Below are positions 53,337 through 56,400 of a stretch of DNA of 64,000 nucleotides, in pieces. A model generated the notes under the pieces. The model was not told the origin of the DNA. It saw nothing but the letters and a program-made list of their open reading frames with translations, and did not search any database. Origin of the DNA: Eubacterium sp. (lineage in GTDB: Bacteria > Bacillota > Clostridia > Lachnospirales > Lachnospiraceae); the NCBI GenBank assembly GCA_017619835.1, contig JAFZRN010000029.1:62001-126000 (forward strand), written 5' to 3'. Both the position numbers and the translations under genes were made by a program. How positions within the stretch are numbered: the first letter of the stretch is position 1; every line of letters starts with the position of its first letter.

Positions 53337-53399
53337 TTGACAGTTAATCTGTCAGGTGCTATTCTATTCGATGTGAAATACCTACCAAAATAGTAGGTA
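53337..53399 (+). promoter_or_regulatory. mccBA promoter with CCTAC-N7-GTAGG operator
   Basis: TTGACA (53337-53342), 17 bases, TATTCT (53360-53365), followed by TACCTAC-N7-GTAGGTA (53379-53399), a perfect 7-base inverted repeat just past the start of transcription. A bound repressor would block elongation or initiation. The operator matches that of metQ. Confidence 0.68.
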
Positions 53400-53417
53400 A
53401 ATATAAAGGAGACAAAA

Positions 53418-53477
53418 ATGAAAGGATCAGTTCAGATTTTTAGAAGAAACTGCTGTAGCTGTTGTTGTATTAGATAA
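53418..53477 (+). CDS. Cysteine-rich leader peptide (MKGSVQIFRRNCCSCCCIR)
   Basis: A 19-codon frame with a good AAAGGAG (53405-53411) and ATG at 53418, ending TAA 53475-53477. Codons 12-17 are TGC TGT AGC TGT TGT TGT: five cysteines in six codons. The stop lies ten bases before an antiterminator arm and a terminator follows, all upstream of cysteine-forming enzymes. This is the form of a classical amino-acid attenuator leader responding to charged tRNA-Cys. The peptide itself is unlikely to have another role. Confidence 0.82.
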   Translation: MKGSVQIFRRNCCSCCCIR

Positions 53478-53486
53478 CAATTAACA

Positions 53487-53571
53487 GCTTTGTTTCGATT
53501 GTCTGAAAATCTGTATCTTTGTCTAAAAGTATGATCAGCGGAACAAGCTTTGTCGTTTGTTCCGTTTTTTT
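53487..53571 (+). terminator. Cysteine attenuator: antiterminator and terminator
   Basis: The terminator pairs CGGAACAAGC (53539-53548) with GTTTGTTCCG (53555-53564; one G-U) around a six-base loop, followed by seven T. The competing arm GCTTTGTTTCG (53487-53497) pairs with the same CGGAACAAGC with one bulged base and one G-U. A ribosome that reaches the leader stop codon covers the start of 53487-53497 and favours termination; one stalled at the Cys codons leaves it free and favours readthrough. Confidence 0.78.
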
Positions 53572-53604
53572 ATGTGACAAACAAATCTGATCTGTTTGTC
53601 ACAT
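53572..53604. repeat. Dispersed 33-base palindromic repeat, copy 2
   Basis: ATGTGACAAAC (53572-53582), 11-base loop, GTTTGTCACAT (53594-53604), followed by TTTT. The arms are identical to copy 1 at 32138-32170. It lies directly after the attenuator's U-run and could serve as a second terminator or an RNA end-protecting hairpin for the mccBA message. Confidence 0.85.
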
Positions 53605-53625
53605 TTTTCTAAGGAGGAGAAGAAA

Positions 53626-54777
53626 ATGTCTTATTCAATCAATTCATTATTAATTCATGGTGGTATCGACGGAGACGAGACCACAGGCGCTGTAAATGTA
53701 CCGGTATACCAGACCTCGACCTATAAGCAGGACGGTCTCGGACAGACCAGAGGAGGATGGGAATATTCAAGAACAGGAAATCCCACAAGAGCAGCACTTG
53801 AGAAACTGGTAGCTGATCTCGAAAAAGGAGAATATGGTCTTGCGTTTGCATCCGGACTTGCAGCGATAAATACGGTGCTCTCGCTTTTTAAATCGGGTGA
53901 CAAGCTGATAGTATCCGACAATATCTACGGTGGTACCTTCAGGATTCTGGATAATGTATTCAGTAACTTCAATATCACATATAAGATAGTCGATACATCT
54001 GATCTTGATGCAGTAAGAGCTGCGTTGGATGATGACGTTAAAGCAATCTATGTGGAGAGTCCCGCTAATCCACTGCTTACTGTTACGGATATCGAAGCAG
54101 TATCGAAGGTTGCTAAAGAAAGCGGACGACTTCTGATCGTCGATAATACTTTTATGACACCATATCTCCAAAGACCTATAGAGCTCGGTGCGGATATCGT
54201 TATCCATAGTGGAACAAAATATCTCGGAGGGCATAGCGATGTGGTTTCCGGCTTCGTGGTTGTAAATGATAAGGCTCTCGCTGACAGACTCTATTATCTT
54301 CAGAATGCGATCGGCGGTATCCTCGGTCCCTGGGACAGCTATCTTATGATAAGAGGAATCAAGACACTTGGTGTAAGAATGGACAGGCATGTTGCGAATG
54401 CAGAGAAGATTGCAGAGTGGCTTGTAGGAAGCGGCTATGTGGATAAGGTATATTATCCCGGACTTAAATCAGATCCCGGCTATGAGACTCAGAAAAAACA
54501 GGCCGACGGTCCCGGAGCGATGATCTCATTTACTTTAAAGAAAGAATATGATTACAAGACATTTTTCAAAAGCACAAAGCTTGTGACACTGGCTGAAAGT
54601 CTCGGTGGAGTGGAGTCCCTTCTCTGCCATCCGGCATCCATGACACATGCGGCAATTCCGAAGGAAATAAGAGATGAGGTCGGGATCACAGACGAGCTGA
54701 TCAGACTTTCGGTCGGTATAGAAGATGTAGATGATCTGATCGAAGACCTTGAACAGACAATACTTGCATCAAGATAA
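53626..54777 (+). CDS. mccB: Cystathionine gamma-lyase / homocysteine gamma-lyase (MccB-like)
   Basis: A 383-residue PLP enzyme of the Cys/Met family with Schiff-base K198 in VIHSGTKYLGGHSDV and the pattern LLIHGGIDGDETTGAVNVPVYQTSTYKQ typical of MccB (YrhB) proteins. It would split cystathionine to cysteine as the second step of reverse transsulfuration. ATG 53626 follows AAGGAGG; earlier codons would fall in the repeat. It is followed 33 bases later by the MccA-like gene. Cystathionine gamma-synthase is the main alternative reading, but the pairing with MccA and the Cys leader favour lyase. Confidence 0.88.
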   Translation: MSYSINSLLIHGGIDGDETTGAVNVPVYQTSTYKQDGLGQTRGGWEYSRTGNPTRAALEKLVADLEKGEYGLAFASGLAAINTVLSLFKSGDKLIVSDNIYGGTFRILDNVFSNFNITYKIVDTSDLDAVRAALDDDVKAIYVESPANPLLTVTDIEAVSKVAKESGRLLIVDNTFMTPYLQRPIELGADIVIHSGTKYLGGHSDVVSGFVVVNDKALADRLYYLQNAIGGILGPWDSYLMIRGIKTLGVRMDRHVANAEKIAEWLVGSGYVDKVYYPGLKSDPGYETQKKQADGPGAMISFTLKKEYDYKTFFKSTKLVTLAESLGGVESLLCHPASMTHAAIPKEIRDEVGITDELIRLSVGIEDVDDLIEDLEQTILASR

Positions 54778-54810: not shown

Positions 54811-55722
54811 ATGGAAAACGTATATAACAGTATTCAGGATATGATAGGAAACACACCGATCCTTAAGATCACACATATGGGCGTAAAGCCCGGAGTGAAT
54901 CTATATGCAAAGCTTGAACTTATGAATCCCGCAGGAAGCGTAAAGGACAGAGTGGGACAATATATGATAAAAGATGCCGAGGAAAGAGGCATCCTTAAAC
55001 CCGGCGGAACGATAGTGGATGCGACTGCCGGTAATACAGGAATAGGAATAGCGGTTGCAGCACTTAACAAGGGCTACAGGATAATCTTTGCTGTGCCCGA
55101 GAAGTTTTCGATTGAAAAGCAGAAGGTCATGCAGGCACTGGGTGCCGAGATAGTTCATACTCCCAGAGCTGATGGTATGCTTGGAGCTGACAGAAAGGCC
55201 GACGAGATTATCGCGGCAACTCCGGGTGCTATATCCCTCAAGCAGTTTCAGAATCCTGCCAATCCGCTTTCTCATTACGAGACTACAGGTCCCGAAATAT
55301 ATAAGCAGCTGGACGGAAAAGTAGACTATCTTGTTGCAGGCGCCGGGAGCGGCGGAACTTTTTCCGGAGTGGTCAGATATCTGAAGGAACAGAACCCCGA
55401 TATAAAAGGCGTTCTGGCAGATCCTTATGGTTCCATAATCGGTGGCGGCGAGCATGCCGATTACGATATAGAAGGGATTGGAAATGATTTCATTGCCGAT
55501 ACAATGGATGTGAGTCTCATTGATAAGGTTATAAAGATTTCGGACGGCGATGCATTTAAAGCGTCCCGTGAACTTGCTCTGCATGAGGGTATCCTGGCAG
55601 GTTCGTCTTCCGGAGCTGCTCTTCATGCTGCGCTTAAACTTGCAGAGGAGATCGAGAGCGGAAATATAGTAGTTATCTTTCCGGACAGGGGAGACAGATA
55701 TATCAGTAAGGGACTGTTTTAA
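54811..55722 (+). CDS. mccA: Cystathionine beta-synthase (O-acetylserine-dependent, MccA-like)
   Basis: A 303-residue PLP enzyme of the cysteine synthase fold: K45 in NPAGSVKDRVG is the Schiff-base lysine, GSGGTFSG binds phosphate, and GSSSGAA lies near the C-terminus. The loop reads DATAGNTGIGIAVAALN, the MccA (YrhA) form, where CysK enzymes have SGNTGI. It would join homocysteine with O-acetylserine or serine to make cystathionine. With MccB next door and a Cys-sensing leader upstream, the pair makes cysteine from methionine-derived homocysteine. CysK-type activity cannot be excluded. Confidence 0.87.
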   Translation: MENVYNSIQDMIGNTPILKITHMGVKPGVNLYAKLELMNPAGSVKDRVGQYMIKDAEERGILKPGGTIVDATAGNTGIGIAVAALNKGYRIIFAVPEKFSIEKQKVMQALGAEIVHTPRADGMLGADRKADEIIAATPGAISLKQFQNPANPLSHYETTGPEIYKQLDGKVDYLVAGAGSGGTFSGVVRYLKEQNPDIKGVLADPYGSIIGGGEHADYDIEGIGNDFIADTMDVSLIDKVIKISDGDAFKASRELALHEGILAGSSSGAALHAALKLAEEIESGNIVVIFPDRGDRYISKGLF

Positions 55723-55845: not shown

Positions 55846-56400
55846 ATGGCAAGAGTAAAATTATTAGAGCTTGAAGAAACAAGCGGAGCAGAGAGAGAAA
55901 GATATGAAGAACTCGCAGGCAGAAATGCCGTAACAAATATGAAGAGAGGTCTTCTGAATGATGCAGCAACGTATGACGCATTTATCGCATGGTATACATC
56001 ATGGAATCGTCTGGTAGAAGTTATCGGTGAGAAGGATGCAGTGCTTTATGCGCATTCGATCTCAACAACAAATTCATGCCAGTTATGCTCACTGTTCTTC
56101 ATCAGTGATGTAAAGGGTCTTGGACTTGATCCTGCAAATCTTCAGTATGATGAGAAGGAGCAGGTGCTTGCAGAACTCGGACAGCAGATTGTTAAGAATC
56201 CTACAGCTGTATCAGATGAGCTCTTTGAAAGAGTAAGAAAATTCTGGAATGATCAGGAGATCGTTGTAATCGTTGGCTTTGCAGGACAGATGATCGCAAC
56301 CAACAACTTCAATTCAGTTCTTAAGATAGATGTGGATCAGAGATTACTTCCGATCATTAATGAGTTTAAGCCTGCAACCTGGCGTGAAAACATAAAATAA
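55846..56400 (+). CDS. AhpD-like carboxymuconolactone decarboxylase family protein
   Basis: A 184-residue all-helical protein of the CMD/AhpD family. The redox pair is C78-x-x-C81 (NSCQLCSLFF) with a His eight residues before it (YAHSISTTNSC), as in alkylhydroperoxidase-like members that use a thiol/disulfide cycle. It probably reduces a peroxide or disulfide in the cytosol. It shares a promoter motif with metY, which ties it to sulfur metabolism, and lies between mccA and a tRNA-thiolating enzyme. AAGGAG lies before the ATG. Confidence 0.85.
   Translation: MARVKLLELEETSGAERERYEELAGRNAVTNMKRGLLNDAATYDAFIAWYTSWNRLVEVIGEKDAVLYAHSISTTNSCQLCSLFFISDVKGLGLDPANLQYDEKEQVLAELGQQIVKNPTAVSDELFERVRKFWNDQEIVVIVGFAGQMIATNNFNSVLKIDVDQRLLPIINEFKPATWRENIK

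Follow-up and report, generated by a model that had tools for sequence, protein, structure and literature searches.

Candidate cysteine leader-peptide attenuators before mccB and other sulfur genes in Lachnospiraceae, with related elements in other Clostridia and Fibrobacter

The Firmicutes are the classic home of T-boxes, and polycysteine frames in mycobacteria were reportedly described by Canestrari in 2020. The described systems closest to the element analyzed here come from several bacterial groups. In actinobacteria, Cys leader peptides precede cys operons or cbs; they resemble our leader in carrying Cys codon runs near the leader stop but belong to another phylum and, in the portion of the source available, are presented as lacking conserved terminator hairpins, with Rho suggested (PMC1262725). 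In Rhodobacterales, uORFC-8-2 is a predicted ribosome-mediated Cys attenuator before cysS (PMC8632094). It shares with our locus a short frame, the Cys codons of which lie inside a stem there, followed by an intrinsic terminator, whereas it differs in having two tandem Cys codons, an alphaproteobacterial host, and a tRNA synthetase gene downstream; the accessible text of PMC8632094 mentions no promoter operator, while the locus described below has a candidate one. In bacilli, a His leader before hisS and hisZ was reported in 2010 as a surprise, and the accessible text presents it as the first case in which regular leader peptides occur beyond Proteobacteria and Actinobacteria (PMC2965389). This is leader-peptide attenuation in the Firmicutes, where it replaces a T-box, but the amino acid is His rather than Cys, and the genes and the order are different (PMC2965389). 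Finally, CymR controls mccAB and cysteine genes in Bacillus and Staphylococcus (PMC3828012, PMC2869319). The target genes overlap with ours, and an Rrf2-family repressor acts at the promoters there; unlike our locus, the CymR system has no leader peptide mentioned in the accessible text of these two papers.

The original prediction for the locus had called such leaders rare in Firmicutes and known for Cys from actinobacteria. The actinobacterial leaders are indeed known, but the Rhodobacterales cysS leader and the bacilli His leader had also been predicted earlier, as far as the accessible text of these sources goes (PMC1262725, PMC8632094, PMC2965389). Full-text searches, which reached few subscription papers, turned up no description of a Cys leader attenuator in either Bacillota or Fibrobacterota. 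The element is of a known mechanistic type, used more widely and in a more organized way than expected.

Leader and competing helices at the mccB-cysK locus

The locus lies in the window, the whole 64,000-nucleotide stretch that was analyzed (G000:C35:62001-126000; source genome, 2.75 Mb and 93% complete), and comprises the following features.

53337..53365, + strand: candidate promoter TTGACA-17-TATTCT (10/12 match to consensus)
53380..53398, + strand: palindrome ACCTAC-N7-GTAGGT (ACCTACCAAAATAGTAGGT), just past the -10; candidate repressor operator
53405..53411, + strand: leader ribosome-binding site AAAGGAG, as read from the sequence
53418..53477, + strand: leader frame of 19 codons, MKGSVQIFRRNCCSCCCIR then stop; Cys-run leaders are kept in relatives
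53433..53444, + strand: predicted protector helix, 5' side (CAGATTTTTAGA), within the leader frame
53485..53498, + strand: arm 2, the antiterminator 5' side (CAGCTTTGTTTCGA), forming a duplex with arm 3
53502..53513, + strand: predicted protector helix, 3' side (TCTGAAAATCTG)
53537..53548, + strand: arm 3, the terminator 5' arm, common to the antiterminator
53537..53571, + strand: intrinsic terminator (hairpin to 53566), a 12-bp stem and then a T-run
53572..53608, + strand: second hairpin, ending in a short T-run; possibly a tandem terminator
53626..54777, + strand: mccB-like gene, Cys/Met metabolism PLP enzyme (NF005810, 552 bits against a cut-off of 594; PF01053)
54811..55722, + strand: cysK/mccA-like gene (TIGR01136, 343 bits, just under the cut-off; PF00291)

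The leader extends from an ATG at 53418-53420 to a TAA at 53475-53477. Its codons 12 to 17 read TGC TGT AGC TGT TGT TGT, which places Cys at codons 12, 13, 15, 16, and 17 (53451-53456 and 53460-53468). The predicted 19-codon frame with five Cys in six codons, the good terminator after it, and a CCTAC-N7-GTAGG palindrome at the promoter were all found, the last also being conserved at promoters of relatives. The claim that the leader ends ten bases before the antiterminator arm holds when counted from the first base of the stop codon, 10 nt before the start of arm 2, but only 7 bases lie between the stop and the arm. The intrinsic terminator stands before the first gene of the locus, and the 248-nt leader region folds more stably than all of 200 dinucleotide shuffles (200/200, z = -6.2). 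The second hairpin, which had not been part of the prediction, is a perfect 12 bp directly 3' of the terminator and, among the genus leaders, occurs at the window locus only. In the predicted minimum-energy fold, 53410-53416, overlapping the edge of the leader ribosome-binding site, pair with 53518-53524, downstream of arm 2.

The best models for the two downstream proteins are cystathionine gamma-lyase/synthase and cysteine synthase, which fit the MccB/MccA reverse transsulfuration pair that had been proposed. Because the scores are under the NCBIfam equivalog cut-offs, however, this function is likely rather than firm. After the pair, 55846-56400 encodes a carboxymuconolactone-decarboxylase-like or YciW-like protein with a weak NCBIfam match (29.9 bits) and no match in a Pfam search.

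The analysis demonstrates the sequence parts, their conservation, and their folding logic; promoter activity, leader translation, ribosome stalling, terminator readthrough, and repressor binding are inferred in the model that follows. When Cys-tRNA is ample, the ribosome would read CCSCCC through to the stop codon, and 53433-53444 would pair with 53502-53513, shutting arm 2 away; arm 3 would then pair with arm 4, and transcription would end near 53565-53571. Under a shortage of Cys-tRNA, the ribosome would halt in the Cys run and cover the 5' side of the protector helix, such that a free arm 2 would capture arm 3, no terminator would form, and mccB-cysK would be transcribed. A repressor, perhaps of the Rrf2 family, would bind the palindrome at the promoter as a second layer.

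Of the 61 genomes of the genus that were searched with MccB, 38 matched at E ≤ 1e-100, and the best-matching loci were retrieved. The closest relative found was L007 (G020, same genus; 96%), while MccB of L066, from the uncultured Lachnospiraceae MAG RUG12719, was 92% identical. The orthologue set comprised 20 loci with at least 81% identity and a readable upstream region (L001, L007 to L024, and L028); L025 was left out because of a contig end. Conservation had been set beforehand as the test that could refute the prediction, and a Cys-run leader preceded mccB in 18 of these 20 same-genus orthologues. The two loci without one, L014 and L022, have mccB close behind another gene. At L010 and L028, the leader frame has no clear separate start, and the palindrome is also absent; at the more distant L026 (64%), a Cys leader is again present. 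Sorted by sequence, the leaders form subtype A (the window and L007 to L010; GCTTGTTTCG), subtype B (L017 to L021, L024, and L028; CATTCTTCG, but CACTCTTCG in L021), and subtype C (L011 to L013, L015, L016, and L023; CCCGGACAT-like). The Cys codons of 19 leaders vary in their third positions (84 TGT and 40 TGC).

The sample for the chance test was 101 mccB loci minus 4 duplicate genomes and 2 loci with less than 200 nt upstream, leaving 95, in which short frames bearing a Shine-Dalgarno-like site were scored by their Cys content per six-codon stretch. A stretch containing 4 or more Cys occurred in 26/95 upstream regions, versus a mean of 0.1 in ten shuffles (0 to 1); eight other amino acids with two codons each gave 0 to 2. 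When the threshold was lowered to 3 in 6, 35/95 regions passed (shuffle mean, 0.9), and the other amino acids reached 13. The Cys runs are therefore not due to chance and are specific to Cys. The genus count at the lower threshold (19/21) probably includes the false frame of L014, which was dropped because it lies inside the upstream gene, and misses L023, where the leader start has no clear ribosome-binding site.

Wider scans yielded mostly rejected candidates. A family-wide scan for TGYTGYWSYTGYTGYTGY (134/299 genomes) gave 30 fetched loci, of which only L041 appeared leader-like by eye, the rest being repeats or alternative frames within genes. When the genus was scanned for TGYTGYTGYTGYTGY (at least 50/61 genomes), the convincing leaders among the loci checked were the mccB leaders. 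Two striking frames, at L152 and L191, run across a lipoprotein signal peptide in a different reading frame. The L041 leader, from another genus (reverse strand, about 1438-1542), ends in CCSCCSCCCCCIPLTI and a stop, has a strong ribosome-binding site, and lies ~34 nt before a symporter gene that is TcyP-like by eye. Since no terminator separates the two, control at L041 is perhaps translational.

The competing helices were evaluated for 18 of 19 leaders, those with a definable terminator (L026 was left out). The arm 2:arm 3 duplex of the window had an energy of -12.4 kcal/mol, with 14/300 shuffles as good. The energy was at or below the level of 15/300 shuffles at 14 of the 18 loci, bringing arm pairing into the same conservation test, and was not below that level at L013, L015, L016, and L023. 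Antiterminator and terminator sequences also change together between subtypes, which, with the conservation, argues at the sequence level for leader-peptide attenuation as originally proposed. Arm 2 starts 12 to 19 nt past the last Cys codon at 15 of 18 loci (exceptions: L009, 11 nt; L011, 4 nt; L012, 6 nt), and the terminator arm of L010 does not match the usual arm 2.

For ribosome-masked folding, transcripts were cut at the terminator loop, and the assumed mask extended from 18 nt upstream to 12 nt downstream of the first A-site base. In the window, the predicted antiterminator probability was 0.00 both without a ribosome and with one on the stop codon, whereas a ribosome on codons 12 to 17 gave 0.87, 0.34, 0.33 (Ser), 0.84, 0.63, and 0.47. 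The modeled protector is a 12-bp helix, the 5' side of which is covered by a ribosome on codon 12 but not by one on the stop. The window antiterminator, as modeled, excludes the terminator and is freed by a ribosome on the Cys codons, not on the stop. Across the 18 loci, a ribosome on the first Cys codon gave a predicted probability of at least 0.5 in 16 (not in L016 and L023); the value was below 0.1 on the stop in 11 and below 0.1 without a ribosome in 11. A ribosome modeled on arm 2 gave 0.00 in all 14 frames that reach arm 2. In the closest relative, L007, a ribosome on the stop left a predicted probability of 0.89, and the model does not reproduce the full switch for some relatives, this nearest one among them. 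At full-length equilibrium, the window terminator is predicted to win in every ribosome state (T = 1.00), such that the switch would have to be kinetic.

We consider it very likely that this region senses charged tRNA-Cys through ribosome-mediated attenuation of transcription before mccB-cysK, although several points count against this reading: the terminator's win at equilibrium, the dips to 0.33-0.34 within the Cys run, the 0.89 on the stop at L007, the antiterminator that the model forms by default in many subtype-C elements (see below), the oddities of L010 and L028, and the leaderless L014 and L022.

The promoter palindrome and a candidate repressor

The pattern CCTA-N5..9-TAGG was present in 27 of 34 leader-bearing mccB upstream regions versus 7 of 61 leaderless ones (shuffles, 0 to 2). 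The list of 34 was made by hand, L067, L074, and L078 having been added by eye, and L067 and L078 fall short of the chance-test threshold. The palindrome overlaps the -35 in subtype C and lies just past the -10 in the window, a shift relative to the promoter that is easier to reconcile with a site in DNA than with a hairpin in the RNA. Its support consists of genus-wide counts and promoter positions; the exact form ACCTAY-N7-RTAGGT was not enriched in the window's own genome (2 sites versus 4 per strand for the reversed pattern).

That genome carries two palindromes at a glutamate-cysteine ligase promoter (C35:126403-126455, L187), 437 bases and less past the window end. One Rrf2 gene was detected in the 93%-complete genome, ~2 kb from these gshA-type operators and divergent from adjoining sufC- and sufB-like genes; its product scores over the Rrf2 superfamily cut-off and under those for IscR and CymR. 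The arrangement is suggestive of a palindrome-binding repressor, perhaps this Rrf2-family protein type, as a second layer.

It seems very improbable that control rests essentially with such a promoter repressor, the leader and terminator setting only the basal level. The conservation of the palindrome fits this explanation, as do the operators that stand before glutamate-cysteine ligase genes with no detected Cys leader, both in the window's genome and at three other genus loci (L206, L224, and L239), but it leaves the conserved Cys runs and competing helices unexplained, and 7 of the 34 leader-bearing loci have no detected palindrome. Rather, the attenuator is probably layered on a promoter repressor. 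Having leader and promoter operator together makes the division of labor between the two layers testable.

Cysteine leaders and candidate operators before other sulfur genes

Within the genus, elements that share the layout but not the sequence stand before metY, transporter, and methyltransferase genes. The palindrome form that overlaps the -35, ACCTATTGAC-N3-RTAGG, occurred in 43/61 genus genomes (reversed control, 0). Among the 42 loci fetched for it, which include the same site twice in some cases, it was often located before metY; it also precedes glutamate-cysteine ligase genes (L206, L222, L224, and L239), cystine-type binding proteins, and MetN. The copies of metY and of the ligase gene were identified from their similarity to a single tested example of each. 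At 21/42 loci, the palindrome was followed by a frame carrying 3 or more Cys in 6 codons. At L218, L232, and L234, operator and Cys leader precede a TIGR00027/LCM-type methyltransferase gene (tested: L218), which is unexpected for a cysteine regulon. A differently built leader region precedes cystine-type binding proteins at L220, L230, L231, and L233. Behind it lies a second small frame, recognized by eye, in which these loci have RMPxxRRC in common and which may be an extra small protein or RNA element.

Twenty-six subtype-C-like elements were assembled, and 18 were aligned, the eight from outside the genus being left out. The antiterminator pairs in 90% of alignment cells, compared with 29 to 47% for slid versions, and 5 of its 15 pairs have changed on both sides. 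The observed covariation was reached by 0/500 shuffles on four of five measures and by 25/500 on the fifth, and RNAalifold, unprompted, predicts 8 of these pairs. In static folding, the antiterminator is predicted to form by default in most of 15 elements, with only a ribosome on arm 2 preventing it. The proposal that a stall at the second Cys cluster frees arm 2 was dropped, since the effect was weak (mean arm-2 pairing, 0.68 to 0.57 in 15 elements). A helix between the Shine-Dalgarno region of the leader and the element's own 3' half scored at a level of at most 15/300 shuffles in 11 of the 26 elements, which is only suggestive of a helix hiding that region in subtype C, similar to the pairing of 53410-53416 in the window.

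Covariance model R1, built from 15 sequences, found 51 places in 37/61 genus genomes, training sequences included, and 17 places in 12/391 genomes (5/223 genera) class-wide. It had no match in the window's genome, the window element being of subtype A. At least two adjacent Cys codons stood at the expected place in 30/30 genus loci and 12/17 class loci fetched with R1 (not in L277, L281, L287, L288, and L292), a check that is partly dependent because R1 starts at the Cys codons. The genes behind the related elements concern sulfur amino acids and transport.

We also consider it very unlikely that the RNA is a structured sensor, either a riboswitch or a protein-binding RNA, with the Cys-rich frame a by-product of its conservation. 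Subtype C does have strongly conserved nucleotides, including a CGA next to the Cys codons, and the possible helix with the leader ribosome-binding site. However, the RNA sequence changes between subtypes A, B, and C, the other Clostridia, and Fibrobacter, whereas the Cys codons persist, with variable third positions, and the window and 18 related loci gave no match at gathering score to the T-box (RF00230), a riboswitch, or any other Rfam family. Least probable of all is a working Cys-rich peptide that binds metal or thiols and does not act through translation, since, despite the dense Cys and the ribosome-binding site, the leaders range in length from 17 to about 40 residues and diverge strongly in sequence outside the Cys run, and the run keeps a fairly fixed distance from arm 2.

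T-box matches do occur elsewhere in all 61 genus genomes at E ≤ 0.001 (52 over the curated cut-off), so the Cys leader is used beside T-boxes. Extending the attenuator reading beyond mccB, we lean toward the view that cysteine leader-peptide attenuators run a sulfur regulon in rumen Lachnospiraceae and some other Clostridia, with Cys leaders on mccB and metY, on transporter genes of the cystine and methionine types, and on a methyltransferase gene. The leader frame would extend across the antiterminator arm. Such leaders would often come with two Cys clusters, a helix that may conceal their own ribosome-binding site, and an operator common to the promoters, and Fibrobacter would have the same leader-plus-operator layout on mccB. 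Together, this would constitute a two-layer cysteine sensor, DNA repressor plus ribosome. Used on several operons, Cys leaders would demonstrate that anaerobic rumen bacteria run a regulon by ribosome-mediated attenuation, in combination with a promoter operator.

Related elements before mccB in other Clostridia and Fibrobacter

Outside the genus, Cys leaders and terminators were recognized by eye before mccB in Oscillospiraceae, Saccharofermentans, and other Clostridia records (L067, L070, L071, and L074 to L078), in the Lachnospiraceae record hRUG872 (L080), and in Fibrobacter (L093, L094, L102, L104, L105, and L109). At the scan threshold, no leader was found for Clostridium ljungdahlii, C. 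carboxidivorans, and two Acetobacterium loci. Switch analysis covered 14 of the 15 loci (L074 was left out). The arm 2:arm 3 energy was at or below 15/300 shuffles in 6/14 (L075, L077, L078, L104, L105, and L109). With the first Cys codon occupied by a ribosome, the modeled antiterminator probability reached 0.5 or more in 12/14 (exceptions: L080, 0.11; L094, 0.42). Placing the ribosome on the stop or over arm 2 was predicted to remove the antiterminator, in one or both of those states, at all 14.

In a tree of 96 MccB proteins, 33 rows of which have a leader, the leader label changed 8 times, versus 27.6 times with shuffled labels, and well-supported branches force 7 of the 8 changes. The Fibrobacter leaders stand apart from the Clostridia clade, so the leaders there may have arisen by transfer or by convergence. 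The presence of the element in Lachnospiraceae, other Clostridia, and Fibrobacter bears on the spread versus the repeated origin of attenuators. Two Fibrobacter genomes, G741 and G743, each contain a second similar element, and the G741 copy also lies before an mccB-like gene.
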